Positions 7,794 to 62,770 of a stretch of 64,000 bases of DNA are shown here, piece after piece. Within the stretch, counting starts at the first letter, position 1. Every line of letters starts with the position of its first letter. The stretch is from the IMG/VR virus record IMGVR_UViG_3300027749_005140, positions 64,001 through 128,000 of that record; one strand, given 5' to 3'. Under the pieces are notes generated by a model, which was not told the origin of the DNA, searched no databases, and saw only the letters and a program-made list of their open reading frames with translations. The position numbers and the translations under genes are program-made. Source of the DNA: a virus.

Positions 7794-7799
7794 CGAAAT

Positions 7800-18206: not shown

Positions 18207-18239
18207 AACAAAAACATCATTTTACATATAAAAAGAAAA

Positions 18240-18247
18240 TAATTTTG
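18240..18247 (+). promoter_or_regulatory. Possible -7 box TAATTTTG of the glycan operon
   Basis: Matches TAnnTTTG and lies 3 nt before the preferred fcl ATG at 18251, but no TTG is found 19-21 nt upstream. It is the only promoter-like signal at the head of the 16-kb island. Confidence 0.35.
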
Positions 18248-18250
18248 TAT

Positions 18251-22785: not shown

Positions 22786-22799
22786 AAAATAAAATTAAA

Positions 22800-26796: not shown

Positions 26797-26812
26797 ACTA
26801 AATGTGAATTAA

Positions 26813-27628: not shown

Positions 27629-27643
27629 AAAAATAAAAATTAT

Positions 27644-29388: not shown

Positions 29389-29404
29389 AAAATAAATATA
29401 ACCT

Positions 29405-30079
29405 ATGAAAGTTGCTATTTGTATATCTGGTCATGTTAGATCACTTGATAAATGTATTCAAAACATAAGAGAAAATATATTCTACCCGATAAAAAGTGAA
29501 TTCGATACTGATATATTTCTATCAACATGGTCTACTGATAAAGACTTATCTTTTTTAAATGAAGATAGTGTTACTATTGAAGTTGAACCTACAATAGACT
29601 TTAGAATGAATTCAAAAAATTATCTAAAATATCCAAACCTATGTTGTCAAACAACTTGTGATAATGCTACATCTATGTGGTATAAAGTTAAAAAATCTTT
29701 TGATATGACAAATGATGAACATCAGATAATAGTTAGAATTAGACCTGATGTTATCTATGATACTAAAATAGATTTAAGTCAAATAATTGATTCTTATTCT
29801 AATGATAATATCTACATGTCAGAATCACCAGGCCGATACTTAGAAGTAACTAAGGGTATGTTAGATCCATTCATATTTGGTAATAGAAAGGTTATGTCAA
29901 ACCTAATGAATACTTATAACAATATTGAAGAATATGTTAAAGATGATAATATAGTACATTGTATTGAAGGATTTTTATACGAGAATACAAAAAATAATAA
30001 ATTAGAAAGAATTGATTTCAAATACTCTATTCTTAGAGAGAATGGAAATATAGATAAGTGTTATATTGAGAATAAATAA
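29405..30079 (+). CDS. Glycosyltransferase-like paralog 2 (CISGHVRS, RIRPD)
   Basis: 224 residues. MKVAICISGHVRSLDKC and QIIVRIRPDVIYD place it in the same family as 26813, 31187 and 31940. Cys-rich centre (YPNLCCQTTCDN). Confidence 0.55.
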   Translation: MKVAICISGHVRSLDKCIQNIRENIFYPIKSEFDTDIFLSTWSTDKDLSFLNEDSVTIEVEPTIDFRMNSKNYLKYPNLCCQTTCDNATSMWYKVKKSFDMTNDEHQIIVRIRPDVIYDTKIDLSQIIDSYSNDNIYMSESPGRYLEVTKGMLDPFIFGNRKVMSNLMNTYNNIEEYVKDDNIVHCIEGFLYENTKNNKLERIDFKYSILRENGNIDKCYIENK

Positions 30080-30089
30080 AAAAATAATT

Positions 30090-31190: not shown

Positions 31191-31930
31191 GAGTAGCAGT
31201 TTGTTTATCAGGTCAATTGAGAAATTATAAAGAAACATTCCCATATTTTAAAAGTTTTATAATTGATGATCTATCACCAGATATATTTATTTATACAGAT
31301 AAGTATGATGTTGAAATAGAAAGATTATATAAACCAAAACATTTTGAATTTAACACTAATATTATAAATAATAACCTAGGCTATAAAAATACACATACGT
31401 CTACAAATGATATTAGCCTTTTAAATCAATTTTATAAAATTTCAGAGTGTAATAAATTAAAGTGTAAATATGAGGATGAAAATAAATTTAAGTATGATTT
31501 GGTAATTAGATGTAGACTTGATTCCTTCTTTATAAGAAAATTTAAAAAAGAAGAGCTTGAATTAAAAGATAATCAAGTTATGACACCTTGGGGTTGGGAT
31601 TTTAAATCTGTTTCAGAACATGCAGAGACTGATATTTTTGCATTAGGTAAATCAGAAGCAATGGATAAATACTCGTCAGTATTCGATAACTTAGATAAGT
31701 ATAAAAATGATATTATATTTCATCCAGAATCACTTATAGGTTATAATCTTTTTAGAGAAAATGTAGAAGTTAAAACATATGAGATTAACTTTCAATTTCA
31801 TTATCCTGAAATAGATGAGTTTGGTAATAATATTGATGTTAGTCAAAGAATACAAGAATTAAAAAACAATGGAGTTGAATATAGTCAAAATTTTTGGATG
31901 AATAAGATACTATATTATCCAATAAAATAA
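31187..31930 (+). CDS. Glycosyltransferase-like paralog 3 (CLSGQLRN, RCRLD)
   Basis: 247 residues. MRVAVCLSGQLRNYKETF, SPDIFIYTD and YDLVIRCRLDSFFIRK match the paralogous family. MTPWGWDFKSVSEHAETDIF is shared with viral homologues I recall. 4-nt overlap (ATGA) with the methyltransferase gene. Confidence 0.55.
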   Translation: MRVAVCLSGQLRNYKETFPYFKSFIIDDLSPDIFIYTDKYDVEIERLYKPKHFEFNTNIINNNLGYKNTHTSTNDISLLNQFYKISECNKLKCKYEDENKFKYDLVIRCRLDSFFIRKFKKEELELKDNQVMTPWGWDFKSVSEHAETDIFALGKSEAMDKYSSVFDNLDKYKNDIIFHPESLIGYNLFRENVEVKTYEINFQFHYPEIDEFGNNIDVSQRIQELKNNGVEYSQNFWMNKILYYPIK

Positions 31931-31939
31931 GTAAATAAT

Positions 31940-32605
31940 ATGAAAATTGCAGTTTTGTTAACAGGGAATATAAGAACATGGTCAGAGAGTAACTTATTTG
32001 ATTTTATTGATGTTGATGTTGACTATTTTATATCTACAACAAATAAAAAATATAATTATCATCCTTTTATTTCAAATAAATTTGGATATAATCATATAAA
32101 TGATTTAATAATATCTAACGATGATATAAAAAACATCTTCAACAATATAGACTATAAAGAACTAATTATAAATGATGATGATGAAATAAACGATGATGAT
32201 TTCTCGGTAAATATGAGAAACATTGATAGTTGTTATCATCAATTTAATAGAATAAAAAAAATTTTATACTATATTGAAGAACATGAGAAAGATTATGGAA
32301 AGTATGACCTAATTATTAAGACCAGATTAGATTTAAAATACTATGGAAAGTTAAGTCAATATTTAAACGTTGATAATTATATTTATACTTCTTTTGGTGA
32401 TGGTGATCCAAATGATACAATATTAATTTCAAAAAGAGATGATTTTTTTAATATTATCAATAATATTATGCTAGAATTTTATAATCAAGCTGATCAAAAT
32501 AGTCATTTGAATCCACCACATGGCCTATTACAATCAATGTTAAATAGATTTCAACTTCAAAATAGACCTAATAATATTGCAGAAATTATAAGACTTAAAT
32601 TATAA
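31940..32605 (+). CDS. Glycosyltransferase-like paralog 4 (LLTGNIRTW, KTRLD)
   Basis: 221 residues. MKIAVLLTGNIRTWSESN and YDLIIKTRLDLKYY give the same family signature. Middle part very Asp/Asn-rich (NDDDEINDDDF). Confidence 0.55.
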   Translation: MKIAVLLTGNIRTWSESNLFDFIDVDVDYFISTTNKKYNYHPFISNKFGYNHINDLIISNDDIKNIFNNIDYKELIINDDDEINDDDFSVNMRNIDSCYHQFNRIKKILYYIEEHEKDYGKYDLIIKTRLDLKYYGKLSQYLNVDNYIYTSFGDGDPNDTILISKRDDFFNIINNIMLEFYNQADQNSHLNPPHGLLQSMLNRFQLQNRPNNIAEIIRLKL

Positions 32606-32630
32606 TAAAAAGATAAAAAAATAATAGATT

Positions 32631-32951
32631 ATGAAGTTACACAAATTAGATAATATGTTTAAAGGTTGGTTTATAGGTGACTTTGAGCCAAGTTTATTTA
32701 ATGCAGACTTTGAAGTTGGTGTTAAAGAGTATAAATCCGGTGATAAAGAACAAAAACATTATCATAAACTGGCTAAAGAATTTACTGTGATAATATCGGG
32801 TAAGGTCAAGATGAATGATATTGAATATATAAAAGGAGATATAATACAAATTGACGAAAATGAATCTACGGATTTTGAGTGTATTGAAGATACAATAACT
32901 GTTGTTGTTAAAACAAAAAGTATAAAAAACGATAAATATATAAATGATTAA
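32631..32951 (+). CDS. Small cupin-fold protein
   Basis: 106 residues. KEQKHYHKLAKEFTVIISGKVKM followed by DIIQIDENESTDFECIED fits the two cupin motifs (H-x-H ... E ... G). Such proteins act as sugar isomerases/epimerases or binding modules in glycan loci; metal residues His and Glu are visible but the activity is not defined. Overlaps the next gene by 8 nt. Confidence 0.6.
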   Translation: MKLHKLDNMFKGWFIGDFEPSLFNADFEVGVKEYKSGDKEQKHYHKLAKEFTVIISGKVKMNDIEYIKGDIIQIDENESTDFECIEDTITVVVKTKSIKNDKYIND

Positions 32952-34302
32952 ATTAGTAATATTTGACCTAGATGGGGTTTTAATAGACACAAGAGAAATA
33001 CACTATGAAGTTTTGAATAAATCCTTACTTAGTATTGATGAGAAATACACTATATCACATAAAGACCACTTGTCTAAGTTTGATGGATTATCAACAAATA
33101 GAAAATTAGAAATACTTTCTAATGAAAGAGGTTTACCTAAAGAGTTGCATAAAGTAATTTGGGAAAAGAAACAAGAATTAACTATAATAGAGTTAGAAGA
33201 TAAAATTAAAAGATCTGATAAATTGATTAATATAATTAATATATTAAAGTCAAAAGATATTAAGGTTTATGTTGCATCTAACTCTATTAAAAAAACCATA
33301 GAAATATCACTTGATAAATTAGGAATATCAGATTTAATAGACGGATTCTTATCCAATGAAGATGTTCTAAGTCCTAAACCACATCCTGAAATTTATATGA
33401 GATGTATGATAAATGAAAAGGTTATGCCAAGTGAAACTTTAATTTTAGAAGACTCATATATTGGCAGATTATCCGCAATCTCATCTGGTGCAAATATTTG
33501 CTCAGTGAATAACCCAGATGATGTCACAATTGAAAAAATAGAGAAGTCATTAAAGAATGAATTAAGAGATATTAAGTGGCATGATGATAAGATGAATATT
33601 CTAATTCCAATGGCTGGGGCGGGTAGTAGATTTTCAAGTGCAGGATACACTTTTCCAAAACCTTTAATTGAAGTTGATGGAATACCAATGATTCAAGTAG
33701 TGATTGATAATTTAAACATAGATGCGAATTTCATATATATTGTTAGAAAAGAACATTATGATAAATTTAACTTAAAATCATTTCTAAATGTAATAACACC
33801 GAATTGTAAAATTATAATGGTTGATGAAGTAACTGAAGGTGCTTGTTGTACTACTTTACTTGCAGAAGAATATATCAATAATAATAACTCACTACTAATT
33901 GCAAACTCAGATCAATTTATAGAATGGGTATCTGGTGAATATTATCACTCTATAAATACAAATGGTATTGATGGTAGTATTTTAACATTTGAAAATACAC
34001 ACCCTAAATGGAGTTATGTTAAGTGTGATGACTATGGTAATGTTGTTGAACTAAAAGAAAAGGAAGTAATAAGTAATAATGCAACAGTTGGAATTTATTA
34101 CTGGAAATCCGGTGCAGAATATGTAAAGTATTCTAAACAGATGATAAGTAAAAATATAAGAGTAAATAATGAATTCTATGTTGCACCAGTATATAATGAA
34201 GCAATTCAAGATGGTAAGATAATTAAAACACATAGAATAAAAAAGATGTGGGGGTTAGGTACACCAGAAGACTTAGAATACTACTTAAAAAACTATAAAT
34301 AA
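32944..34302 (+). CDS. HAD phosphatase fused to sugar-nucleotidyltransferase
   Basis: In this 452-residue protein residues 1-205 are a HAD-family phosphatase of the beta-phosphoglucomutase type: FDLDGVLIDT (nucleophile Asp and acid/base Asp), VYVASNS, SPKPHPEIYM and LILEDSYIGRLSA. Residues 217-452 are a nucleotidyltransferase: ILIPMAGAGSRFSSAGYTFPK, ANSDQFIEW for the metal site, and WGLGTPEDLEYYL at the end. The two activities could successively handle a sugar phosphate and activate it. No equivalent single-gene fusion is known to me for fucose; the sugar is unidentified. Confidence 0.8.
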   Translation: MIKLVIFDLDGVLIDTREIHYEVLNKSLLSIDEKYTISHKDHLSKFDGLSTNRKLEILSNERGLPKELHKVIWEKKQELTIIELEDKIKRSDKLINIINILKSKDIKVYVASNSIKKTIEISLDKLGISDLIDGFLSNEDVLSPKPHPEIYMRCMINEKVMPSETLILEDSYIGRLSAISSGANICSVNNPDDVTIEKIEKSLKNELRDIKWHDDKMNILIPMAGAGSRFSSAGYTFPKPLIEVDGIPMIQVVIDNLNIDANFIYIVRKEHYDKFNLKSFLNVITPNCKIIMVDEVTEGACCTTLLAEEYINNNNSLLIANSDQFIEWVSGEYYHSINTNGIDGSILTFENTHPKWSYVKCDDYGNVVELKEKEVISNNATVGIYYWKSGAEYVKYSKQMISKNIRVNNEFYVAPVYNEAIQDGKIIKTHRIKKMWGLGTPEDLEYYLKNYK

Positions 34303-45896: not shown

Positions 45897-46321
45897 TAAA
45901 AATTATTATAAATCATTTTTGTTAATTTAGGATCATTAAAAGTATTACCATTAAAGAAAAGATAAATACCTTTTAGTCTCTTCACTTCTAAAATTGCCAA
46001 TTCTTCTGTTTCAAATATATTCAACATAATAGGAACTGATTTTAATTTACCTTTTTCAAATATTCTATGTTCTCCTTTAATATCATTAAAATATCTAAGT
46101 TCGATTATACTAAAGTATCCAGTTTCTACTTGATGTATCTTATATTTTATAACATAAGGTTTATTACTATACTCTTTTGTAAATATAAGAGCATCAATAC
46201 ATTCTAACATAACTTCATCTGTATGTAGATTTCTAATATTTTCCAAATCTCTTTTAGACTTTGATTGATTTATACTACACCAAAATAAACTATCTAATGT
46301 AGTTACTTGTAAATTAAACAT
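45896..46321 (-). CDS. Unknown protein in dnaJ operon
   Basis: 141 residues with mixed strands and helices (YVIKYKIHQVETGYFSIIEL). No family recognised. Overlaps dnaJ by 1 nt. Confidence 0.5.
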   Translation of the reverse strand: MFNLQVTTLDSLFWCSINQSKSKRDLENIRNLHTDEVMLECIDALIFTKEYSNKPYVIKYKIHQVETGYFSIIELRYFNDIKGEHRIFEKGKLKSVPIMLNIFETEELAILEVKRLKGIYLFFNGNTFNDPKLTKMIYNNF

Positions 46322-47391
46322 TAAAAATTACCAGCATTTTTTAGTTTTTCCAGTATTGCTTTTTGTTCAAGGTTGATAGACTTTGGTATTCTAATTCTAA
46401 TATTTATTACTAAACTTCCCATACCTTCGTGAATATCTGGAATTCCTTTACCATTTACTCTTATAATCTTACCGTGTTCTGTACCCGGTTCAATAGCTAC
46501 TATTACATCACCGTGTGGTGTTTTAACCGATACATTGTTACCAATTATTGCATCAATAACTGAAATCTCTACATCAACTATAATGTTACCACCTTCTCTT
46601 CTAAAATATGGCTCTCTAATTTCATCAAAGACAATATATAAGTCTCCCGGAACACCATTGACTACATGATTTCCAAATCCCGCCATACTCATTTGCATTC
46701 CATTTCCAACACCTTTAGGTATTTCAACATCAACGGTTTGTTCTTTTAAAGTTGTTCCATGTCCGTGACAAACATTACACTTGTTTGCTATTTGAGTTCC
46801 AGAACCATTACAGTCAGGACAACCCGAAACATTTCTAATTTGTCCAAATGGTGTATTTTGTACTACAGTTCTTTGTCCAGAACCATTACACGGAATACAA
46901 GTTCTTACATCGGAACCACCTTTACCATTACAAGGATTACAAGGTTCATGTCTTTTATACTTTAATTTCTTTGTAGCACCATTGATTATTTCTTCAATAG
47001 TTAAAGTAACTTTTATTCTTAAATCAGATCCTTTTGATTGTCTTTGTTGTTGTTGTTGTTGTCTTTGACCACCACCAAATATATCTCCAAATTGACTGAA
47101 TATATCATCCATATTGAAACCGTGACCTCTTCCACCACCGAATGGATTTCCACCTCCGAATGGGTTACCTCCACCATCTGCAGATCCGAATCTATCAAAA
47201 TTAGATTTCTTTTCTGGATCAGAAAGCACATCATAAGCTTCTGCAGCTTCTTTAAATTTTGTTTCTGCTTCTGGATTACCTGGATTTTTATCAGGATGCC
47301 ACTTCATTGCCATTTTACGATAAGACTTCTTAATCTCATCTTCTGATGCTGTTTTATCAACACCTAGTACGTTATAATAATCTTTTGCCAT
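46321..47391 (-). CDS. dnaJ: DnaJ co-chaperone
   Basis: 356 residues, near full length. J-domain with HPD at 32-34 ([11 protein letters not shown]), a Gly/Phe-rich region ([17 protein letters not shown]), a short Gln run, four CxxCxGxG zinc motifs ([32 protein letters not shown]), then the substrate-binding C-terminal domains. It delivers clients to DnaK and stimulates its ATPase. Unlike host operons, it is transcribed with grpE on the minus strand while dnaK is 3.7 kb away on the plus strand. Confidence 0.95.
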
Positions 47392-47709: not shown

Positions 47710-48223
47710 TTATTATTCTCTTTAAATTTTTATCTCTTGTTGCCAATTTCATATCAGCATCAACTGTTTCTGAATTATATGCTATATGGAATAAACCTGC
47801 AATATAATTATCAACTATAAGTTGTAGTGTTTCTTGTGTTCTATCTAAATTATCAAATATCTCTAATTTATTTGAAGACTTTGGTATAATTAAAACCAAA
47901 TAATCTAAAAATTCATCTATATCAAATAATAATTCAAATAATTGTAACCTTTCTTTTTTTAACATAGAAGGTGGAGTAACATAAACTTTACCCCACACTC
48001 TTCTAATTGTCGGTAGAATAAAATCTAGTAGATCATCATCACCATCATACAAATTTCCTTGAAATTCAAATCCTTTAAATAAGTAAAGTTTCTTATCAAT
48101 AACATATTCTAATAAATCTCTAAATTCAGATGTATTTTTAATACCTTGACACAACGTATCAAGAATTATTTCTCGATACGATGGGTTTTGATTTATTTCT
48201 AATATGGAAGGTTTAGTATTCAC
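47702..48223 (-). CDS. Unknown protein between grpE and dnaJ
   Basis: 173 residues, mostly helical (LQLFELLFDIDEFLDYLVLII). Its ATG overlaps the grpE stop by 1 nt. Translationally coupled; possibly virion assembly clients of the chaperones, which is inference. Confidence 0.5.
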   Translation of the reverse strand: MNTKPSILEINQNPSYREIILDTLCQGIKNTSEFRDLLEYVIDKKLYLFKGFEFQGNLYDGDDDLLDFILPTIRRVWGKVYVTPPSMLKKERLQLFELLFDIDEFLDYLVLIIPKSSNKLEIFDNLDRTQETLQLIVDNYIAGLFHIAYNSETVDADMKLATRDKNLKRIIND

Positions 48224-48675
48224 TATTTTCCTAATACAACTTTTGGATATCTAAAAGGTTTACCATTTAATGTATAACCTTTAGTGACTACATCTATTAC
48301 TTTTTTAGCACCTGCTTCAGTTATACTAATAACTTCGTGTAACTCATCATCATAAGTTTCAGTTTGAATTGGTTCAATACCTTGTGACTTTAAGAAAGTT
48401 TCTAATTTTTGTGCGATTAGTAAAACTCCTTTATCAACTTTATCCATTGATTTCAAAGCCAATGTAACATCATTATCCATATCAATAACAGATGATAACA
48501 TTTTAGTTTTTGTGTTTAATACTAACTCTTCTTTATCTTTCTGAACTCTTCTTTTGTAGTTTTCAAAATCTGCATAAAGACGTAAGTATTTGTCCTCGGA
48601 CTCTTGTAGTTTTTGTTCTACTGTTACTTCAACAATAGTTTCTTCTAAAATTTCTTTTTGTTCTTCGTTTTCCAT
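48223..48675 (-). CDS. grpE: GrpE nucleotide exchange factor
   Basis: 150 residues, shorter than host GrpE (about 190). Acidic N-terminus, the long helix EDKYLRLYADFENYKRRVQK, VIDMDNDVTLALKSM, and the beta domain YDDELHEVISITEAGAKK and YTLNGKPFRYPKVVLGK. The hallmarks FENYKRR and KPFRYPKVVLGK are intact. It exchanges ADP on DnaK. Confidence 0.9.
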   Translation of the reverse strand: MENEEQKEILEETIVEVTVEQKLQESEDKYLRLYADFENYKRRVQKDKEELVLNTKTKMLSSVIDMDNDVTLALKSMDKVDKGVLLIAQKLETFLKSQGIEPIQTETYDDELHEVISITEAGAKKVIDVVTKGYTLNGKPFRYPKVVLGK

Positions 48676-51104: not shown

Positions 51105-52997
51105 ATGGCAAAAGATGTAATCATCGGAATCGATCTTGGAACCACTAATAGCTGTGTAGCAGTTGTTGAAGGTGGAGAACCAATCGTTATTTCAAATTCA
51201 GAAGGTAAAAGAACAACACCTTCAGTTGTAGGATTCACTGATAAAGACAGAAAAGTTGGTGACCCTGCGAAAAGACAAGCAGTTACAAACCCTGAAAAAA
51301 CTGTTTACTCAATAAAAAGATTTGTAGGGAAAGACTTTTCATCTTGTACAGATGAAGTAACAAGAGTTCCTTACAAAGTAGAAAAAACTGGCTCAAATGT
51401 ACCTGGTGTTAGAATTGACGACAGAGTATATACTCCACAAGAAATCTCAGCAATGATTCTTCAAAAGATGAAGAAAACTGCAGAAGATTACTTGGGTTAT
51501 GAAGTAACTAGAGCAGTTATTACCGTTCCTGCTTACTTCGGTGATGCAGAAAGAACAGCAACAATCGAAGCAGGAGAAATCGCTGGTTTGAAAGTTGAAA
51601 GAATTATCAATGAACCAACTGCGGCTGCTTTAGCATATGGTTTAGATAAGAAAAACACTGAATCTAAAATTTTAGTATTTGACTGTGGTGGTGGAACTCA
51701 CGACGTGTCTGTATTAGAAATTGGTGATGGTGTTTTTGAAGTAAAATCTACTGATGGTGATACTCACTTAGGTGGTGACGACTTTGATAATGAAATCATT
51801 ACTTGGATGGTAGAAGAATTCAAATCTGAAAATGGTATGGATTTATCAAAAGATGCTATGGCATTACAAAGATTAAAAGAAGCTGCTGAGAAAGCGAAGA
51901 TTGAATTATCTTCTTCTACAACAACTGATATTAATCTACCTTACATCACATCAAGAGACAATCAGCCTTTACACTTTGTTAAACAGTTAACTAAAGCGAA
52001 ATTTGAACAAATGACTAGTTCATTAGTTAAAAGAGCTATTGATTGTGCAAAGTCTGCTCTTAAAAGTGCTAAATTAAAACCATCTGATATTGACGAAGTT
52101 ATCTTAGTTGGTGGTTCTACAAGAATTCCTGCTATTCAAGATGCTATCGAATCATTCATTGGTAAGAAAGCAAACAAATCTGTGAACCCAGATGAAGTTG
52201 TTGCGTTAGGAGCAGCTATTCAAGGAGCAGTTTTAACTGGTGGTATTTCAGATGTATTACTTTTAGATGTAACTCCTCTTTCACTTGGTATTGAAACAAT
52301 GGGTAGCGTATTTACAAAATTGATTGATGCAAATACTACTATTCCTACAAGAAAAAGTGAAACATTCTCTACTGCCTCAGATAATCAATCATCAGTGGAA
52401 ATCCACTGTCTTCAAGGAGAAAGACCGATGGCAAGAGATAACCGTTCTTTAGGTAGATTCCATTTAGATGGTATCCCACCTGCACCAAGAGGTGTTCCCC
52501 AAGTTGAGGTGATTTTGGATATCGATGCTAACGGTATACTTTCTGTAACCGCGAAAGATAAAGCTACTGGTAAAGAAAACAAAATCCGAATTGAAGGTGG
52601 TTCTCAGTTGACTAAAGAGGAAATTGAGAACATGAAGGCAGAAGCTGAAGCTAATGCAGAATCTGATAGAATTGAAAGAGAAACAGTTGACAAACTTAAC
52701 GGTGCAGACAACTTAATCTTCCAAACAGAAAAACAAATTAAAGAGTTTGATGAAAAACTATCAGAAGAAGACAAGAGAGCTTTAGGTATAGACCTAGAAG
52801 AATTGAAAAAAGCTTATGCTGATAAAAATGTTGATGCAATTGACGAAAGTTCTAAAAAACTAAGTGAATCATGGCATGCAATCAGTACTAAATTGTACGA
52901 ACAATCTCAAAATGAACCTGAGCAAACTAACGAAAGCTCAGATGATAATGTTGAAGATGTAAGCTTTGAGGAAGTTTCTGATGAAGAAACTAAGTAA
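51105..52997 (+). CDS. dnaK: DnaK (Hsp70) chaperone
   Basis: 630 residues, full length. [14 protein letters not shown] at the start, [25 protein letters not shown], the Bacteroidota-type [20 protein letters not shown], and [12 protein letters not shown] in the nucleotide domain. The linker is [13 protein letters not shown], then the substrate domain ([16 protein letters not shown]) and an acidic C-terminal tail. Conserved phosphate-binding and linker residues are intact, so it should be active. It refolds proteins with DnaJ and GrpE, both encoded in the window. Close similarity to host DnaK suggests capture from a host. Confidence 0.97.
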
Positions 52998-53061: not shown

Positions 53062-53310
53062 ATGAAAGAAATATTTAGTAGTGTTATAAGAAAAAAAGTT
53101 ACTAAACTAATTAGTGATATAGGGTTAGATATTTCGGAGATAGTTATCAAATTACCTCTAAGTATTGAAACTTTTGATACTATAGAATTGATCAATAATA
53201 CTATTATTCTTCATAGATTTGAAGCTAATTTAGATTATATTTTTCTTTTTGATCATTTAGAAGATGAAGATAAGTTAGAGGTATATAAACTACTTTTTAT
53301 TTATTTATGA
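53062..53310 (+). CDS. Small unknown protein
   Basis: 82 residues, helical (MKEIFSSVIRKKVTKLISDI). Its 3' end overlaps the converging minus-strand gene by 6 nt. No family recognised. Confidence 0.5.
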   Translation: MKEIFSSVIRKKVTKLISDIGLDISEIVIKLPLSIETFDTIELINNTIILHRFEANLDYIFLFDHLEDEDKLEVYKLLFIYL

Positions 53311-53805
53311 CGAATATCTACTTTTATTCTTTTCTGCAAGATAAGCTTTTAAGTCTTCATAGTTGACATTACCTGGATTACTAAATATTTTATCAGAAAA
53401 ACCAATTGGTTTATCCTCAATCTTTTTAATTTCATTCGCTTTTACACGCTCATCATACTCTTCTTCAACAGTTTTTAGTATGTGTCCTAAGTAAAATTCG
53501 ATACCTTTATCTCTTACTAATAAATTATCCAATTCAAATAAAAATTCTTGTAAATCGTCAGTATAAACTGCAAAAGATTTATCTTTTATATAATGATCTA
53601 CATAGAACTTTATATCACCAACATTTCCCTGTCCATAAATTGTGGTATTATATTGCATGTTATAAAACTTTGCAAACTTATCTTTATCATTATAAATACG
53701 GGATCCATTTTTCTCTATAGTAGGAACTAATCCTAAACTAACTCTAAAATACCTGGATTTTTTAAATTCTTGAAGTGTTTGAAAACTTGATACTATACTT
53801 AACAT
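53305..53805 (-). CDS. Unknown protein at end of exported-protein operon
   Basis: 166 residues. The N-terminus MLSIVSSFQTLQEFKKSRYF has no tag or signal peptide. Mixed strands and helices with IYGQGNVGDIKFYVDHYI. No family recognised. Confidence 0.5.
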   Translation of the reverse strand: MLSIVSSFQTLQEFKKSRYFRVSLGLVPTIEKNGSRIYNDKDKFAKFYNMQYNTTIYGQGNVGDIKFYVDHYIKDKSFAVYTDDLQEFLFELDNLLVRDKGIEFYLGHILKTVEEEYDERVKANEIKKIEDKPIGFSDKIFSNPGNVNYEDLKAYLAEKNKSRYSS

Positions 53806-53833
53806 AATTTATTTATTAAAATAAACTAGTTTC

Positions 53834-54394
53834 CTATTCAGTTTCTATTTCAAACTTTTCTTCTTCGTCACCAAACACATCATCTAATTCAATTTTAAGA
53901 TTGATAAGATATTCTTCATCTAACGATTTAACATCTACATTTTTATCTAATTGACCAATTATCTCAAATGTATTTATTTCATATTTTTTAAGAGTAACAT
54001 GACACTTTTTAATATCTTCTATACTAAAATCTTTATCATCTTCTTTAGGGAATGCTGCAATATCTTGTGCGACCTCTGCAGTATCTACTTTTATAAAAAT
54101 AGAATATGAATTTTCGTCATCAGAAAACTTAACTGTTAAGCCAGTATTCTTCATTGATATTTCAGAACTATCCAATCTAACACCAAACTCTTTAAAAGTT
54201 GGTTTATTCTTATCTTTATTAGATGAAAACTTTGCCTTTTTAACAGTCATTTCTTCAGAATCTTCTTCTGGCTCAGACTCATATTCAAACATCTTATCGA
54301 TTTTATTCTTTAAAACACCTAGTAATGAGTTACTATAGTTTTCAATTGTATCAGTTGCTTCAAGAATAAACTCTGTATATTTAATTATCTTCAT
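53834..54394 (-). CDS. Tagged protein (MKIIKYTEFILEA)
   Basis: 186 residues, the clearest tag in the window: MKIIKYTEFILEA resembles T4 MKTYQEFIAEA. ILE-A fits the (I/L)-x-E cleavage rule of the T4 gp21 prohead protease. Acidic body (EPEEDSEEMTVKKAK, GDEEEKFEIETE) with beta-rich middle, as in some internal head proteins. 4 nt downstream of another tagged gene. Confidence 0.6.
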   Translation of the reverse strand: MKIIKYTEFILEATDTIENYSNSLLGVLKNKIDKMFEYESEPEEDSEEMTVKKAKFSSNKDKNKPTFKEFGVRLDSSEISMKNTGLTVKFSDDENSYSIFIKVDTAEVAQDIAAFPKEDDKDFSIEDIKKCHVTLKKYEINTFEIIGQLDKNVDVKSLDEEYLINLKIELDDVFGDEEEKFEIETE

Positions 54395-54398
54395 CTTA

Positions 54399-54671
54399 TT
54401 ATAAATTTTTTATTGATGTATTTGGTTTTGGTGGCATCACAATTGTTGAATACCCACCTTGTCCTAATCCTATCTTATCTTTTATATCATTTACAAAAAC
54501 TTGAGGTACTTTACCACTATCTTCATATTCTACCATCATTTCACCATAAAAGTCCATAAGATTATTTATCTCTATCGGTCTTAAATTAAATTTCTTTAGT
54601 ATAGAAAGAACTTCTGATTGATAATCATTATCTGAATATCCGAATCCTTCAAAAGTTTTTAAATGTTTCAT
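54399..54671 (-). CDS. Tagged protein (MKHLKTFEGFG)
   Basis: 90 residues. MKHLKTFEGFGYSDND fits the tag; the rest is a short helical/loop region (QSEVLSILKKFNLRPI, GQGGYSTIVMPPKP). TAATATATA box 4 nt before the ATG. Confidence 0.6.
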   Translation of the reverse strand: MKHLKTFEGFGYSDNDYQSEVLSILKKFNLRPIEINNLMDFYGEMMVEYEDSGKVPQVFVNDIKDKIGLGQGGYSTIVMPPKPNTSIKNL

Positions 54672-54675
54672 ATAC

Positions 54676-54684
54676 TATATATTA
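54676..54684 (-). promoter_or_regulatory. TAATATATA box before tagged gene
   Basis: Minus-strand motif then GTAT and the ATG at 54671, the same short layout as before 904. Confidence 0.45.
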
Positions 54685-55173
54685 CTTATCACAAGTACCT
54701 TTTTCTACCTTTACTCTATACTGCATAGCTTTATCATAAACAAACTCAATTAGCCAAGGTTCAACATCAGTTATTTTAAATAAAAAACTTAACTCAAATA
54801 AATAAGCTTGCATTTCTTCATTACAAACATTATTATTATCGGATATATGTGCAATGTGATATGCTTCATGAATAATTGTTGATGCAAGATTATTTATAGA
54901 ACCTCTACCAAAATTTTTTGAGGAAATTACAATAACTCTCTTACCATCAATTATATGAATAGTATTTATACTACCATTCCAAACACTTATTCTATCTACA
55001 TTTGTTTCTACGAAGTCATAAAGAAATGGATCAACTATCTTAATCTTATCAAGTGATCTTTGTATCTCTACATCCCAGAAGTCTCCAGCTTTATCTATTT
55101 TAATTTGTGCATTAAGATTACAATAAAATAGAATAAAACATATTAAAAATAACTTACATTTTATAAACTGCAT
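54682..55173 (-). CDS. Exported HExxH metallopeptidase-like protein
   Basis: 163 residues. Sec signal peptide (KCKLFLICFILFYCNLNAQ, cleavage after A in the Bacteroidota style before Q). Catalytic motif IIHEAYHIAH with a downstream NEEMQAYLFE as a possible third ligand, a gluzincin-like pattern. It may act in the periplasm on peptidoglycan-linked or outer-membrane proteins. Overlaps the upstream gene by 20 nt. Confidence 0.65.
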   Translation of the reverse strand: MQFIKCKLFLICFILFYCNLNAQIKIDKAGDFWDVEIQRSLDKIKIVDPFLYDFVETNVDRISVWNGSINTIHIIDGKRVIVISSKNFGRGSINNLASTIIHEAYHIAHISDNNNVCNEEMQAYLFELSFLFKITDVEPWLIEFVYDKAMQYRVKVEKGTCDK

Positions 55174-55600
55174 CTTCTATACTTTTTTTTAATGCTCCGG
55201 CGAATGAAGTTTTATTAAATGGTAGATTCTCATCATTCAAATCAATGAATGTAGCAGTTACTGATGTTTTTGCTCTACCTACTCCTTCAAAATCTTCACC
55301 ATCTTTTGTGATTTTAACTTTAACCTCTGTATCTTTACTTACCTTCATAAATGGTCCTATTGATACACCAACAGTTGGTGCTTCAATACTAACTATCTCT
55401 ACAACAATTGGTTTACCATCTTCACATATAGTAAAGTTTTCTGACATAATCTCTTCTGTAAGTTGTCTAATACCAAAGACTACTCTTTCTTTTTTCATTT
55501 CCGGTGCATCAACTGATGACTTAATTTCAGTAACTTTATAACAGGGTTTTGTGAATCCCATTAAAGCCATAACAACTAAAATTATTATTAAATCTTTCAT
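55154..55600 (-). CDS. Exported protein of unknown function
   Basis: 148 residues with an N-terminal hydrophobic segment (LIIILVVMALMGF) followed by KPC, which is not a good lipobox. The body is beta-rich (VGVSIGPFMKVSKDTEVKVK, RAKTSVTATFIDL). Related in style to the CsgG-like neighbour but not recognised. 2 nt downstream of the repeat-rich gene. Confidence 0.55.
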   Translation of the reverse strand: MKDLIIILVVMALMGFTKPCYKVTEIKSSVDAPEMKKERVVFGIRQLTEEIMSENFTICEDGKPIVVEIVSIEAPTVGVSIGPFMKVSKDTEVKVKITKDGEDFEGVGRAKTSVTATFIDLNDENLPFNKTSFAGALKKSIEDAVYKM

Positions 55601-55602
55601 AA

Positions 55603-57294
55603 TTAAAACATTATTTTTCCACCTGTTAAAACTTGATAGTTTAACATGCTTTTATTCATTTCATAAACTCCTGAGAAACTAACATTAAACTTAAACGTTT
55701 TTGTAAGTTTATAATCCCAGGTAGAATAAGGAACGATGAGTATACTACTATCCCACCATTTACCATCATAAAACTGTGTAAATGGAGAATAAACTCCGAT
55801 AAATAGTACAGAACCAGATATTTTTGGACTTATATTATATGAGTAAAACCCACCACCAATTGCAGATATATTCATAAAACTTTTTTCACCATATTTACCT
55901 GCAGTATAGTTTAAACCAGCCATTGTAGTAAGCTTTTTCCAATTACCTTTATATCTCTTAGATAATACCATTGTAGTTGTATTAAAAAAGTCTTTATCAA
56001 AGTTCATCATTGACGAATTTGCTGCAATAAATGTTAGTTTAGATTTTTTGAACACCCAAGCTTTATACAAAGTTATATTAGTATTATTTACAACTGATGT
56101 GAAATTGACTAATACACCTTTAACACGAGTATTATCAGTATTTGCCATTGTCATAGAACTTGTAAACTTAAACTGATTTTTTGCAGTAGGATCTTCTGCA
56201 CTTTTCATTACAACAATATCACCAGAACCAATCATAGATCCTGTTTTCTTCTCACTCTTATTACCTTTTCCACCACTAGAACCACCACTAGAGTTATCCT
56301 CTGCATCGGCTACTGTAGTTGATGTTGTACTTGAACTTGAACTAGTTGATGTATTTTTATCTTCATCCTTTTTATTATCACCGCTTGAATTATCCTCTGA
56401 ATTTGAAACTGCATTTGCAGTAGAACCACTTCCTCCTCCACTACCTTGAGTCGTAACTCCAGTACCACTAGTTGATACACTTGGTGTAGTAGTGTTATTT
56501 GCTACTGAAGTTGAACCAGAAGTTGTTGAACCACCATTAGTTGAACCATTAGTTGAACCAGAAGTTGTTGAATTACCATTAGTTGAACCAGAAGTTGAAC
56601 CAGAAGTTGTTGAACCATTAGTTGAACCAGAAGTTGTTGAACCATTAGTTGAACCATTAGTTGTTGAATTACCATTAGTTGAACCATTAGTTGAACCAGA
56701 AGTTGTTGAACCACCATTAGTTGAACCACCATTAGTTGAACCAGAAGTTGTTGAATTACCATTAGTTGAACCATTAGTTGTTGAATTACCATTAGTTGAA
56801 CCAGAACTTGTTGAACCAGAACTCTTCTCTTCTTTTTTCTCATTAGAAGAACTACTAGAATCACCATTCTCACTATTATCTAAAGCATTTGCTAAATTAC
56901 TAGACATTCCACCACCTGCAACATCCGATAAAATATCACTCATCATACTTGTTATGTTTGCAACACTTACAACAGTACTTATAACATTTTGGGCAACTGT
57001 CATATTTATATTATTCGTTAAAACAGTTGCTATAGCACCACAAGGTTGACTTGTATTTGTACCGGAAACTGTATTCATCCAAGTTTGGAAATTACCATTA
57101 TTAAAATCAACACTATTAAACGTACCAACATGACCATAATAATCTACAGTTACATTACTACCTGGTGCACCAATAGGTACAGTCAATGACTTTAACTTAC
57201 CAGAACAAGGCTCAATATAAGAGTAGTCATAACTACTTTGTGAATATGTAGTTAAACTAATTAGTATTAAAAGTAATGTTAGTATCTTTTTCAT
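55603..57294 (-). CDS. Exported repeat-rich protein with outer-membrane-like C-domain
   Basis: 563 residues. Signal peptide [19 protein letters not shown]. After a 130-residue N-domain, about residues 140-345 are low complexity, dominated by STNG/STTSG units, then Ser/Asp/Lys. From about 350 the sequence turns into alternating beta strands ([40 protein letters not shown]) and ends in GGKIMF. A terminal Phe with strands is the signature of outer-membrane barrels. It may span the outer membrane and display the Ser/Thr/Asn-rich stalk. Overlaps the CsgG-like gene by 1 nt. Confidence 0.6.
56510..56830 (-). repeat. Coding tandem repeats (STNG/STTSG)
   Basis: Many near-identical units on the plus strand such as GAAGTTGTTGAACCA and ACCATTAGTTGAACC. 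They encode the Ser/Thr/Gly/Asn stretch of the overlapping exported protein; unit number is prone to slippage. Confidence 0.85.
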
Positions 57295-58001
57295 TATTTA
57301 GCGAATACTGCTTTTTTAATCATTTTTGATATAATTCTTGAAGCAGCAGTTTCAAGAGATTTCTTTGTTGTAATACCAATAGTTGATTGATTAAACTTAA
57401 CCTCATCAACACCATCAAGTAAAGTTGCTTTCTTTATAGTAACTGCTTCACTTGTACCTGAACCTGTAATAACTTCACCTGTTTCTGCATCAACAAATCT
57501 AACTTGAAGTCCAAGAATAGTCTTTTGTTTTAACTCTGCAGAACCTACTGTAAGTTCTTCCTCATCTGATACAGAGAAGTCATATACTTCAATATAAACA
57601 AAGTATTTAGCTAAAATAACATTACCCTTCACTTTTATTTGATTTGATGATATACCCTTTGCGGAAGCTTTATCTTGTGCAATCATCTTTTGTTTGATGT
57701 CATTTTTATCTTCGGTGAATACGAAACGATTTGTCATCTCTAAGTATTCTAATACAATATTTGCAACACCTAATCCAACTCTTTTATCTTTAAGTTCTGG
57801 ATACATTGCATAAACATCTTCATTGATACCAATTGAAAGTACTTGTACCGGAATTGGTTCCCCATCATAGTCTGCAACTACATTGATAGATTGTTTTTTC
57901 TCAAATTCTGCTTGATATGACTCAGTTTTGGTACTACCTATAACTTGAGCAGTAGCTGATAATCCTATAAGAGAAATTATTATAAAAAGTAGGTTTTTCA
58001 T
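57294..58001 (-). CDS. CsgG-family outer-membrane secretion protein
   Basis: 235 residues. Signal peptide (MKNLLFIIISLIGLSATAQ). The body follows the CsgG pattern: KRVGLGVANIVLEYLEMTNR, KGNVILAKYFVYIEVYDFSV, KTILGLQVRFVDAETGEVI and a C-terminal helix KKSLETAASRIISKMI. CsgG forms a nonameric pore exporting curli subunits. Unlike E. coli CsgG it has no lipobox Cys. Cargo here is not evident; the downstream repeat-rich protein is a candidate partner. Confidence 0.75.
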   Translation of the reverse strand: MKNLLFIIISLIGLSATAQVIGSTKTESYQAEFEKKQSINVVADYDGEPIPVQVLSIGINEDVYAMYPELKDKRVGLGVANIVLEYLEMTNRFVFTEDKNDIKQKMIAQDKASAKGISSNQIKVKGNVILAKYFVYIEVYDFSVSDEEELTVGSAELKQKTILGLQVRFVDAETGEVITGSGTSEAVTIKKATLLDGVDEVKFNQSTIGITTKKSLETAASRIISKMIKKAVFAK

Positions 58002-58023
58002 TACATTTTTTTATTTTTTTGGA

Positions 58024-58058
58024 AAAAAAAGAGATGATTTAAAAACCATCCCTTTTTT
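58024..58058 (-). terminator. Weak terminator-like hairpin
   Basis: GAGATG / CATCCC arms with flanking A and T runs between the 58071 stop and the CsgG-like gene. Confidence 0.45.
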
Positions 58059-58070
58059 ATTTTTTGGTTT

Positions 58071-58391
58071 TTACCAAGGGTCTTCTTCTTTTGGTTTAGC
58101 TGGTGTAGCAGCAGGTGCCGCTTTCTCAACTGTTTTTTCTCTAATGATAGTTGTACCCCCACCACCTTGCTTTTGTTGGTTAGTGTTGTTATTAGCTACA
58201 TTAACTACAATAGGTGCTGCAGCTGGTGCTGCTACTTCAGTTTTTGTTTTCTCCTCATCATCTGAGTGTCCACCAAATAATTGAGTTGATACCCAAACTC
58301 CACCTGCAGTGATTAAAGTTGTTATTCCACCGATTATTGTTTTCTTTAATCCTGACATTGTACCGTCATTTGTTTCTGTTTCTTCTGACAT
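58071..58391 (-). CDS. Small single-TM protein next to holin-like gene
   Basis: 106 residues from ATG at 58391; a longer frame from 58511 only reads the preceding gene out of phase. One hydrophobic segment (LKKTIIGGITTLITAGGVWV) follows an acidic N-tail, then an Ala/Pro/Lys-rich tail ending KPKEEDPW. It could be a spanin-like or antiholin partner; unproven. Confidence 0.5.
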   Translation of the reverse strand: MSEETETNDGTMSGLKKTIIGGITTLITAGGVWVSTQLFGGHSDDEEKTKTEVAAPAAAPIVVNVANNNTNQQKQGGGGTTIIREKTVEKAAPAATPAKPKEEDPW

Positions 58392-58407
58392 AATTTTTTT
58401 ATTTTTT

Positions 58408-58761
58408 TTATTGTTCACTGTCCATTGTGTTAGATAGTGCAACACCATCTTCCTCATCAACCTTTTGAATAAGCATTTTATCTCTATCTTCAGAGTTGAA
58501 CCAATAGTCAACTACTTTGTTAAGATTTCCTACGAATGCACCTAAAAGAATAAGTAATAATTCTTTCCAGTCTTCTCCTACTGGTACTCCAAAGAATATA
58601 CCAGAATTGATTCCTAGTATAATCATAAAGAATAAACCTAATACTATCGCTGTAATTCTCCAACGATTAGATTGCATTTGTTGTAACATAAAGTAGAAAC
58701 GATTTTTATCATCTACTTTTACATACTCACTGTCTCCACCAAAAAATGATTTTAAACTCAT
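58408..58761 (-). CDS. Holin-like membrane protein
   Basis: 117 residues with two hydrophobic helices (RITAIVLGLFFMIILGINSG and KELLLILLGAFVGNLNKVVD), then YWFNSEDRDK. The helix-(K)xDYWFxSxxxxDK layout is typical of small phage holins. It is sandwiched between exported-protein genes, so it may either time lysis or have an export-related role. Confidence 0.55.
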   Translation of the reverse strand: MSLKSFFGGDSEYVKVDDKNRFYFMLQQMQSNRWRITAIVLGLFFMIILGINSGIFFGVPVGEDWKELLLILLGAFVGNLNKVVDYWFNSEDRDKMLIQKVDEEDGVALSNTMDSEQ

Positions 58762-58777
58762 ATTTATTTTATTTTTT

Positions 58778-60694
58778 TTATTGTTTAACTACTTTTGTTG
58801 CAGTTAAATGTTGTTGAGAATCAGGTGCCAAAACTGCGATATATGTCCCAGTTGGTAATTCACCTAAATCTACTGTATAGCTATATTTTCCCTTTGGAAA
58901 ATTCTCAGTTATAACATCAATACATTTTTTACCATTGATGTCATAGAAACCTAAGTTAGCTTTAGTTCCTTTTGATACTGTGAAAGCAACTGTTACCTGT
59001 CCATCAGTTGGATTAGGGTAAACAATCATTTCATTTGTATTTACTAAAGAACCATTATTCATTTTATTTATTACTACTAAACCATCAGTTGGTCTAATAT
59101 TGAAATCGTGAGAAGTTGCATCACCTGCTGCTTTACGAGTAACTACTAAAGGACTAGTTCCCCAGTCACCTTGTGGTTTTTTAGCAACAAATTGTAATGT
59201 GAATGCAATATCATTATTTTTAACTAAATCTAAACCACCGAATGCATCATAACCACCCCAGTCAATAATATTTTCTTCTGGGTTAGTATAAGACATCCAT
59301 CTTGAAACAGATGTTGTACTTTCAATCCCTTTAAATTCTAAAAGGGATTGGTCATACCATACTCCAAACTGCATTGAACCTAAAAGGTAATCAGCAGAAA
59401 GTACTCTTACAGGAACATTGATTAAGTTACCTTCTTGAATGTTATTTAAAGTAGGTAAGTTTAATTCAATTTCTTGATTTACATTATCAAATATGATAGT
59501 TTTGTCAATAATATGGTAAGGAGCATTTGCTGGGTTAGCAATCTCAATTGGAACCATACGAGCCATTTGGAAACCTGTGTTGTTAGTATCTCCTGCACCT
59601 AATACATAGAAACTTACTAATGTATGTGGATCAGCTGGTAAAATAACTTTATCAAATACAGTTACACCAGGAATTGTAGATCTCAAGTTTGTTGGTGAAG
59701 TATTTACAGTATTGTATTCAGTTTCATTAAAGAATAAAACATCTTTTACACCATTTGGCCAAGCAGTAAATCTACCTGCGATTCTACCAAATATTGAATA
59801 AACGTCAGCAATAGTAATTGTATTAGAACCATTTACGTCAGCAGAATAGAAATCAAATCCTGTTGGTGTAGTTGTACCTAAAACAATATCATTAGCTTTT
59901 TGAGCATCTGCTGTTGTTACGATGTTACCAAAGTTAAGAGCATCACCTTGAACGTGTATTCTTACATCATAGTAAGATACGTCAATTGGTTCATTAAATG
60001 TGAACGCACCATTCACATCAGTAGTAAATGTTGTTACATCTGTCCAAGTTGTTGCAGTAGTTGCTTTCTTTTGTAATACAACTGGGATGTTTTTTGCACC
60101 AGCACCTGTAACTGTTTTGAAGTTACCAGAGTAAGCAAACATTTGTTGTTGGAAAACCCCACCATAGTTATGAACAACTAAAGTTGTATCTAAACCATTT
60201 ATATCTGATGCTCCATTTGGAAATGCAGTTACACCAGTTACAGCCATATTGGCAATTGGATTTGTTCCTGAAAAGTTTTGAAAGTTAGGAGTATGAAGTA
60301 ATTTCAAATCAAATAACGTTCCATCAGGAATAGTAAAGGTAGAAGAACTACCAGTGTATGCGATTGTAATTGTTATGTTACCTTCAGTAGTGTTGGTAAC
60401 ATATTGTAAACTTTGTGGGAATGTTGTGTTTAAAGAAGTTACGACTGGAGCTCCACCTGCGAAAGCTACTTTGTCATACCATACTCTAAACTGAACACCC
60501 GAAACTTTTGTAGAAGTAGTGTTCGCATAACACATTCTAACATGAGTTTCCCCTGCAGTAATTGTCCCAACTGGGTAAGTACTGTCAAACATAACATAAA
60601 CCCCTGTTCCAGGAGCGGTAGGACAAGTCTGTGCAAATGTAGAAAAACTACATAACAAGAACAAACCTACCATAAAGGTTAAGATTTTTTTCAT
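58778..60694 (-). CDS. T9SS-secreted multidomain protein (cohesin/dockerin-like, C-terminal sorting domain)
   Basis: 638 residues. Signal peptide MKKILTFMVGLFLLCSFSTF followed by AQ. Two cohesin-like beta domains are suggested by ETHVRMCYANTTSTKVSGVQ and VSGVQFRVWYDKVAFAGG near 50-75, and LLGSMQFGVWYDQSLLEFKG near 440. Between them lies SADVNGSNTITIADVYSIFG, a dockerin/EF-hand-like loop. The last 85 residues (VYPNPTDGQVTVAF, DINGKKCI, ELPTGTYIAV, KVVKQ) are a type A T9SS sorting domain. The T9SS is found only in Bacteroidota and relatives. The protein is predicted to be anchored on, or released from, the infected cell. Exact TTAATATATA box 28 nt upstream. Confidence 0.85.
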   Translation of the reverse strand: MKKILTFMVGLFLLCSFSTFAQTCPTAPGTGVYVMFDSTYPVGTITAGETHVRMCYANTTSTKVSGVQFRVWYDKVAFAGGAPVVTSLNTTFPQSLQYVTNTTEGNITITIAYTGSSSTFTIPDGTLFDLKLLHTPNFQNFSGTNPIANMAVTGVTAFPNGASDINGLDTTLVVHNYGGVFQQQMFAYSGNFKTVTGAGAKNIPVVLQKKATTATTWTDVTTFTTDVNGAFTFNEPIDVSYYDVRIHVQGDALNFGNIVTTADAQKANDIVLGTTTPTGFDFYSADVNGSNTITIADVYSIFGRIAGRFTAWPNGVKDVLFFNETEYNTVNTSPTNLRSTIPGVTVFDKVILPADPHTLVSFYVLGAGDTNNTGFQMARMVPIEIANPANAPYHIIDKTIIFDNVNQEIELNLPTLNNIQEGNLINVPVRVLSADYLLGSMQFGVWYDQSLLEFKGIESTTSVSRWMSYTNPEENIIDWGGYDAFGGLDLVKNNDIAFTLQFVAKKPQGDWGTSPLVVTRKAAGDATSHDFNIRPTDGLVVINKMNNGSLVNTNEMIVYPNPTDGQVTVAFTVSKGTKANLGFYDINGKKCIDVITENFPKGKYSYTVDLGELPTGTYIAVLAPDSQQHLTATKVVKQ

Positions 60695-60722
60695 TGGTTG
60701 GTTGATATTTTTTTTTTCATAA

Positions 60723-60732
60723 TATATATTAA
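60723..60732 (-). promoter_or_regulatory. TTAATATATA box of the exported-protein island
   Basis: Exact minus-strand motif 28 nt upstream of the ATG at 60694. It is the only promoter-like signal at the head of the island, which runs to 53305, although a second box precedes the tagged gene at 54671. Confidence 0.5.
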
Positions 60733-60830
60733 AAAAAAAATCGAAAAAATGTCAACTTTTCACTGTATATAAGTAAAATCCTTGTAAAATAAAGAGGACC
60801 TTTTATAGTAGAAAATTAAAAAAACTTTTG

Positions 60831-62293: not shown

Positions 62294-62318
62294 AAAAGAG
62301 GACTATTTGTCCTCTTTT
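62294..62318. terminator. Bidirectional terminator
   Basis: AAAAGAGGAC-TATTT-GTCCTCTTTT between convergent genes. Confidence 0.85.
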
Positions 62319-62770
62319 TTCTTTTTATTTCTTTCGATAATCATTTCCTCTGGTGTTAGTAATCCTCTACCAAACAATTTAACTCTATCGTCATATCTTT
62401 TCTTAACTCTTTCTGAAATTGGCACTGGTGCTCCTTCATCATCAATTCTAACGAATACCATTTTAGTCGAACAAACTAAATCTTGAACACCTGTATAAAC
62501 ATTATGTTTTCTTGCTTCAAGATTGATTGTAATAGATGTATTACCTATCTTCTCAACACTACCATATATCTTAATTAAGTTACCAGTTTTAACTGGTCTT
62601 TGAAAAATTACTTCTTCAATTTTCTTTGTAACCATTCTTGGTGTATCACAAATCTGACAACAATAAACTGCTGCAGACTCGTCTAAAATTGACATCATTT
62701 CACCACCAAATAAATTTCCATGTACTCCTATCTGTGAGGCCATACACACTCTTGTTGTAATTAGTTCCAT
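62303..62770 (-). CDS. Acyl-CoA thioesterase (hotdog fold, YciA-like)
   Basis: 155 residues. QIGVHGNLFGGEMMSILDES holds the catalytic Asn/Asp region of the YciA/BACH family. RMVTKKIEEVIFQRPVKTG and CSTKMVFVRIDDEGAPVPIS complete the hotdog strands, and a Lys-rich tail ends the protein. It hydrolyses acyl-CoA thioesters in the cytosol; a phage role in membrane lipid or CoA turnover is unknown. 3 nt after the dCMP deaminase gene. Confidence 0.85.
   Translation of the reverse strand: MELITTRVCMASQIGVHGNLFGGEMMSILDESAAVYCCQICDTPRMVTKKIEEVIFQRPVKTGNLIKIYGSVEKIGNTSITINLEARKHNVYTGVQDLVCSTKMVFVRIDDEGAPVPISERVKKRYDDRVKLFGRGLLTPEEMIIERNKKKKEDK

Follow-up and report, generated by a model that had tools for sequence, protein, structure and literature searches.

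Why should a phage genome carry, within one run of genes, a cargo protein for the type IX secretion system (T9SS) of its host, proteins of the CsgG fold and an outer-membrane barrel? This question is raised by a 64,000-nucleotide stretch of virus DNA, here called the window, which represents positions 64001 to 128000 of the 131,933-base IMG/VR virus record IMGVR_UViG_3300027749_005140, and in which the features of this system all sit in a single minus-strand run. A sequence-only reading of the window had singled out this run of exported proteins, and its presence, including that of the T9SS cargo and the CsgG fold, was confirmed. The set of six to eight exported and membrane proteins is shared by hundreds of Bacteroidota viruses, is apparently switched on late, and may represent an undescribed way of remodelling or breaking the host envelope. 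The reading that we favour, at somewhat less than even probability, is that the run constitutes a late-expressed trans-envelope module of Bacteroidota phages which acts at egress, and the function we infer for it is possibly that of the outer-membrane step of lysis.

The run extends over positions 53305–60694, which the sequence-only reading had regarded as one phage-borne island. The run is real; the conserved module, however, is confined to positions 54682–60694, because the three genes at 53305–54671 (minus strand), for which no family was found, are present only in this record and in two near-identical contigs, and these genes were therefore dropped as module members. The term island also proved an understatement, as the module is a conserved operon in the ~80 contigs examined, with a CsgG-like relative being encoded in 353 virus contigs. 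Comparison of the neighbourhoods of 84 loci, derived from ~80 distinct contigs, revealed a recurrent gene order, i.e., T9SS cargo (~635 residues), TM106, a protein with two transmembrane (TM) helices, CsgG-like protein, barrel, in most relatives a lectin, second CsgG-like protein and HExxH protein, which permutes slightly in that the gene for TM117, the two-TM protein of the window, may stand on either side of the CsgG-like gene, as may the lectin gene with respect to the second CsgG-like gene. It is strongly supported that this order is conserved, that the products possess export signals or TM segments, and that TM106 and TM117 form the inner-membrane part of the module while the CsgG-like protein, the barrel, the second CsgG-like protein and the T9SS cargo form its outer-membrane or surface part, with folds as predicted by structure modelling. 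Bacteroidota-style Sec signals had initially been read on four proteins; export signals were indeed observed on these, and that of the second CsgG-like protein brings the total to five window proteins, the Sec-type signals of which are kept in their homologues.

The phages that carry the module have genomes of ~100 to >300 kb, jumbo-sized ones included. Among phage isolates, tblastn searches returned the CsgG-like and T9SS proteins only from Flavobacterium phages named immuto, while a pattern-based scan of the cellular genomes of 84,980 species, which distant forms could escape, returned one locus only, located on a 254-kb contig of a metagenome-assembled genome that carries the same module together with an endolysin gene; the module therefore looks viral. 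That these are host genes in a misassembled or prophage-like contig would be in keeping with domain types that are typical of Bacteroidota, yet it is barely credible given this single cellular match and the occurrence of the module in the ~80 examined virus contigs as well as in an isolated phage.

The sequence-only reading had listed superinfection exclusion, surface remodelling, aggregation and assisted release as possible roles without choosing between them, and two lines of evidence, namely linkage with an endolysin gene and the presence of a promoter motif of late type, now favour a role at the egress stage. A GH19/PG_binding_1 endolysin (PHROG lysis, 4e-66) is encoded within ~8 kb of the module in 40 of 54 long loci. 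Among 34 dereplicated loci it is present in 19, which makes it the commonest flanking family after that of the HExxH protein, the next being a holin-like two-TM family (15 loci) and an endolysin-like family (phrog_33083; 10 loci). The endolysin gene is placed upstream or downstream of the module and on either strand, and these arrangements occur dispersed across the CsgG tree, which suggests that the linkage originated on more than one occasion.

With regard to timing, the late-type motif TATTTATA (TATTTAT) precedes the terminase, portal and tail genes of the cultured Flavobacterium phage vB_FspM_immuto_2-6A (hereafter immuto), at distances of 24–33 nt in the case of TerL, portal, tail sheath and tail tube; in this phage the motif is also found 21 nt upstream of the holin-like gene that stands ahead of the endolysin. 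At the module loci the motif is enriched before the T9SS gene (15 of 32 loci, against a mean of 1.8 and a maximum of 7 in 2000 shuffles) and before the endolysin gene (8 of 18 loci), and it is found before internal genes at 1/32 (CsgG), 0/29 (barrel) and 0/17 (TM117) loci. Late timing is thus supported in relatives, in which the T9SS gene would appear to head a late operon.

A number of points weigh against an action at egress. The motif is missing upstream of the window's own operon, and promoter-like hexamers in the window and in this upstream region are no commoner than in shuffled sequence; as TATTTAT also precedes 42 of 278 other flanking genes, the late-promoter step rests on the relatives, and it is from its position that TATTTATA is presumed to be the late promoter of this phage group. 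Furthermore, when contigs of at least 90 kb are considered, an endolysin gene lies nearby at 4 of 11 dereplicated loci, a modest excess over the 1.2 expected at random (P=0.024), and in the cultured phage immuto the module is separated by ~28 kb from the holin-endolysin cassette. The window's own endolysin was not found, nor were a lectin and a holin, when sought in the whole record; this absence means little, because the record is probably incomplete, no capsid or terminase gene having been recognised in it by eye. Finally, a T9SS cargo and a lectin are superfluous for the rupture of an outer membrane.

Table 1. Features of the exported-protein module and its flanks, in order of transcription (positions refer to the window)
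Feature	Positions	Strand	Description
Operon upstream region	60695..60830	-	TTGACA and TAATAT hexamers 18 nt apart (60755-60726)
T9SS type-A cargo	58778..60694	-	638 residues; first gene of the operon
TM117	58408..58761	-	Inner-membrane protein; two predicted TM helices; charged cytoplasmic-type tail (FNSEDRDKMLIQKVDEEDG)
TM106	58071..58391	-	Bitopic protein of the inner membrane; a short N-terminus precedes the single TM helix; periplasmic tail rich in Ala, Pro and Gln
Hairpin with U tract	58002..58070	-	Terminator- or attenuator-like; intergenic, between TM106 and the CsgG-like gene
CsgG-superfamily protein	57294..58001	-	235 residues; Sec signal
Outer-membrane barrel protein (predicted)	55603..57294	-	563 residues; Sec signal, N-terminal domain, linker, C-terminal barrel
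Second, smaller exported CsgG-like protein	55154..55600	-	148 residues; overlooked in the sequence-only reading
Exported HExxH protein	54682..55173	-	163 residues; putative zinc metallopeptidase

The two inner-membrane proteins include the most conserved member of the module, TM117, whose homologues exhibit 71–93% identity to the window protein. Its earlier description as holin-like was not upheld, as it rests on the two TM helices, and neither the window protein nor its homologues matched a holin profile. In other loci the slot of TM117 is occupied by an unrelated two-TM family, HOL65, which in immuto is positioned directly before the endolysin and an annotated holin. The tail of TM106 ends in an acidic stretch followed by an invariant C-terminal Trp, which is present in all 36 dereplicated homologues (as ESW, APW, DSW, SPW, DPW or EPW). 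A two-component spanin pairs a bitopic inner-membrane protein, which has a periplasmic coiled coil, with an outer-membrane lipoprotein; TM106 shows the former topology by inspection, but its tail is of a disordered type, and a lipobox is found in only part of the CsgG-like proteins. The hairpin that follows the TM106 gene (-16.3 kcal/mol; z=-4.3 relative to shuffles) is not listed by a simple terminator scan, and many relatives have no gap between the TM106 and CsgG-like genes.

The assignment of the next protein as CsgG-like was borne out by its fold and not by the Pfam profile, PF03783, against which it scored 18.3 bits, i.e., under the cut-off of 20.8. As E. coli CsgG, when used as a query, finds neither these proteins nor the immuto homologue, the homology rests on the fold. 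An AlphaFold2 model based on 32 homologues (mean pLDDT 62.5, moderate confidence; the immuto row was left out of the alignments behind the structure models) was compared to the PDB using Foldseek, and the best 20 matches were all solved CsgG structures, with E values of 1e-8 to 4e-6 and a TM-score of ~0.5. In profile searches against PDB sequences, profile A1 returned no CsgG and profile A2 returned weak matches to ribosomal protein S1 only, none of them convincing. The second CsgG-like protein, which is found across loci, aligned to the CsgG-like family profiles with an hhalign probability of 97% (E=1e-10). The region corresponding to TM1/TM2 of CsgG is present, but at the position of TM1 the alignment shows a strongly charged segment (SEDEVVK..GESKTTQ), and it is therefore doubtful that the protein would form a CsgG-type pore.

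The protein that had been described as repeat-rich and outer-membrane-like is predicted to consist, after its Sec signal, of an N-terminal domain with an invariant Cys pair, a long, low-complexity, disordered linker composed of Ser, Thr, Gly and Asn, and a 12-strand outer-membrane barrel. The barrel was modelled by means of AlphaFold2 via a homologue (L009), in which the 12 strands span residues 217–419, mostly with pLDDT values of 72–93, and its PDB matches (NanC, KdgM, autotransporter barrels and FapF) are generic. It is in this context that a secretion or fibre system has to be considered, in which a CsgG-like ring and a FapF-like barrel would export the lectin or other subunits and thereby build up an adhesive coat through which cells aggregate ('sibling capture'). 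Such a system would account for the CsgG fold and for the fact that the barrel matches include FapF, which exports functional amyloid, and it would have a counterpart in pelagiphage CsgGF clusters that include curlin-repeat proteins. We nevertheless regard it as decidedly unlikely: CsgE, CsgF and curlin-repeat partners are lacking among the module genes of the window as scanned with Pfam, PHROGs and NCBIfam profiles (the partner genes of relatives were scanned only in part), the charged TM1-position segment makes a CsgG-type pore doubtful, the barrel matches point to no particular exporter, and the operon of the window contains no lectin gene.

The last gene of the operon encodes the exported HExxH protein that had also been noted previously, and this motif is kept in 29 of 29 dereplicated homologues, followed downstream by EExx[AC]Y in 28 of them. 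The protein matches no Pfam family and no known peptidase family, and it is putatively a gluzincin-type metallopeptidase on the basis of these motifs. Its gene is present in 22 of the 34 dereplicated loci, in five of which it lies on the opposite strand.

At the other end of the operon, the T9SS cargo commences with a Sec signal, whose hydrophobic stretch ends in FAQ, followed by N-terminal beta domains, a dockerin-like unit (residues 247–311), a cohesin-like domain (408–544) and a sorting domain (558–638). A hydrophobic signal core was observed in 39 of 40 cargo homologues, as judged by a simple score rather than by a dedicated predictor. The C-terminus scores above the curated cut-offs of both PF18962 (Pfam; E=1.7e-10, 41.5 bits versus 27) and TIGR04183 (NCBIfam; 33.7 bits versus 23), thereby bearing out the T9SS assignment, and represents the sole T9SS domain match in the entire record. 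Both a T9SS C-terminal hit and a CsgG fold, on which the sequence-only reading had staked its case, were thus found. The sorting domain is present in 82 homologous cargo genes, and the cargo would be expected to use the T9SS of the host for its export. A profile of the cargo (A4) matched dockerin chains (E=5e-4) and cohesin chains (E=3e-3) in the PDB, and the homologue in immuto, gp015, matches Pfam Cohesin at 5.9e-9. The lectin proteins of relatives contain C-type lectin and LamG domains and have in common with the cargo a region that holds the dockerin-like unit; since the cargo matches cohesin and dockerin and the lectins carry this same region, cargo and lectin could be joined through a cohesin-dockerin link. 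No diversity-generating retroelement that could serve the C-type lectins was noticed in a crude motif listing, although no proper search was made.

It is the cargo and the lectins that give weight to the chief rival explanation, namely that the module remodels the cell surface without rupturing any membrane. The T9SS cohesin cargo and the lectin would then mask or modify glycans and receptors at the surface, the CsgG-like and barrel proteins would provide the platform for their export or anchoring, and superinfection would be blocked or progeny protected in this way. This possibility, which we take seriously while holding it to be unlikely, is consistent with a surface-directed cargo and C-type-lectin/LamG partners of variable architecture (332–990 residues), with the presence of the lectin gene inside the run in most relatives, with an exported NUC1-like nuclease at some loci that could cut incoming DNA, and with clusters of glycosyltransferase genes in immuto and in other parts of the window. 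On the other hand, a motif in relatives that is late rather than early represents bad timing for superinfection exclusion, the repeated linkage to an endolysin would be unexpected, and the best-conserved pieces of the module are inner-membrane and not surface proteins. The late motif and the endolysin linkage count against early superinfection exclusion, though not against a shielding of progeny from debris. Carbohydrate-binding domains in relatives, together with the late-type motif, could also be expected of virion-associated structural proteins, yet such a role is very unlikely, as virion assembly is cytoplasmic whereas the five window proteins possess Sec-type signals that are kept in homologues, and as the T9SS sorting domain is retained.

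If the module acts at egress, as we favour, its parts could be arranged as follows. The tail of TM106 with its invariant Trp and the long arm and N-terminal domain of the barrel protein, which are probably periplasmic, would meet and couple both membranes, while the CsgG-like proteins might assemble into a ring or collar located at the outer membrane. After the endolysin and holin have opened the wall and the inner membrane, this complex would rupture or permeabilise the outer membrane, perhaps with assistance from the secreted metallopeptidase. The surface would be coated by the T9SS cargo and, in most relatives, also by the lectin, which have a dockerin-like unit in common, and progeny would thereby escape being trapped on debris or on cells that are already infected. 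A bolder version, which is doubtful at present, is that of a dedicated outer-membrane-breaking machine of Bacteroidota phages, unrelated to spanins, in which a Trp-tailed tether in the inner membrane and a two-TM protein would be combined with CsgG-like proteins, a barrel whose arm is as long as the periplasm, and a surface scaffold delivered through the T9SS; this lysis module would be swapped between otherwise distant phages.

The conservation of the individual proteins bears on this last point. Identity to the window protein drops from the inside to the outside of the envelope: next to TM117, the values are 62–76% for the CsgG-like protein, 52–84% for TM106, 42–88% (median 45) for the T9SS cargo, 31–52% for the barrel and 27–86% (median 33) for the second CsgG-like protein. 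The large terminase is usually a slow gene. In lineages whose terminases are 27–35% identical, the CsgG-like proteins are nonetheless 63–84% identical, TM117 72–85%, the endolysin 61–82%, TM106 51–80% and the T9SS cargo 48–72%. These values may reflect exchange of the module and the endolysin among distantly related T4-like phages or, alternatively, a shared host target that keeps both constant; both of these readings would fit a lysis or envelope role, and the identity comparison favours neither.

Disruption of the outer membrane is the task of spanins in phages of proteobacteria. Bacteroidota phages have been listed among the spanin-less phages (PMC6139136), and one survey reports Bacteroidota phages with unimolecular spanins only (PMC12596118). 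The module bears no recognised sequence relation to spanins (lambda Rz/Rz1, or unimolecular), from which it also differs in that an integral barrel replaces, or accompanies, a lipoprotein, and in being a far larger set; bridging of the membranes by the module is our proposal.

Parts of the module have counterparts in other phages. Pelagimyophages (HTVC008M) and the methylophage Melnitz are likewise T4-like and encode a CsgG-fold protein in a co-directional run of exported proteins (PMC7029224, PMC9004378). Their CsgG is 40–44% identical to that of E. coli, whereas the module's protein is linked to it by fold only, and their clusters contain CsgF, curlin-repeat proteins and a cyclase gene in place of the barrel, TM106/TM117, second CsgG-like protein and T9SS cargo described here. 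The CsgGF of Melnitz was proposed to act in lysis (PMC9004378); a pinholin action, as proposed for that phage, was not our first choice for the CsgG-like protein, as the Sec signals and, in some homologues, a lipobox (LxSCK) point outward. T9SS type-A sorting domains occur on proteins of Cryophage (PMC7468147), where the cargo genes are variable (endoglucanase, GH39, PA14), and of some crAss-like phages, where the cargo is BACON-linked (PMC6949934); in contrast to both, the module cargo has a fixed place in an operon of several genes and carries cohesin- and dockerin-like domains. The closest known system is that of immuto, in which gp013–gp019 represent a homologous module with a CsgG-like protein (72%), barrel, second CsgG-like protein, TM106, lectin and cohesin/T9SS pieces, all annotated as hypothetical or by domain only. 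It differs from the module of the window in that the cargo is distributed among separate genes, no TM117 was detected within the set and the genes for lysis are located elsewhere. The open-access papers searched yielded no description of the combined module. CsgG is known from pelagiphages and, separately, T9SS cargo from other phages; the combination joins known parts, and there is a real chance that it represents a new kind of lysis machine.

Bacteroidota are major degraders of algal and gut polysaccharides. The conserved late envelope operon provides a concrete candidate for the way in which their phages, some of which are listed as spanin-less (PMC6139136), open the outer membrane, and a cultured representative is available for testing in the form of immuto on Flavobacterium sp. 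LMO8. It would also imply that phages build on the type IX secretion system of their hosts, and it provides T4-like phages with a second example of a CsgG-fold protein, in a gene set of independent composition, which is relevant to the question of why csgGF is carried by marine phages.

Some further genes were observed near the module and elsewhere. The exported NUC1-like nuclease adjoins or lies inside the module in 8 of the 34 dereplicated loci (e.g., L024 10589-11176, PHROG nuclease 7e-15; L085 9935-10513, 5e-20) and might serve to remove host DNA during lysis or to block DNA that enters the cell. An acyl-CoA-thioesterase-like gene is located at 62303–62770 (minus strand) of the window, and such a thioesterase family flanks 8 of the 34 loci. 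DnaJ-, GrpE- and DnaK-like genes, as read from the sequence, are present within 7 kb at 46321–47391 (minus), 48223–48675 (minus) and 51105–52997 (plus), a complete host-type trio being unusual for a phage. Inspection also revealed a Clp-type AAA+ ATPase-like protein at 15533–17638 (plus) and, at 6526–7707 (minus) of locus L087 from the same virus record, a glutamyl-tRNA-reductase (HemA)-like open reading frame, while two tandem copies of a Gln-Pro-Asp tRNA triplet lie at 7372–7872 (plus). The region 18194–34302 (plus) comprises a run of sugar-nucleotide and glycosyltransferase-like genes recognised by eye (GDP-fucose/mannose dehydratase types and many glycosyltransferase-like reading frames), to which immuto has a comparable cluster; immuto also encodes, at L085 18607-37015, the queuosine/7-deazaguanine DNA-modification genes QueC, QueD, QueE, FolE, DpdA and QueF.

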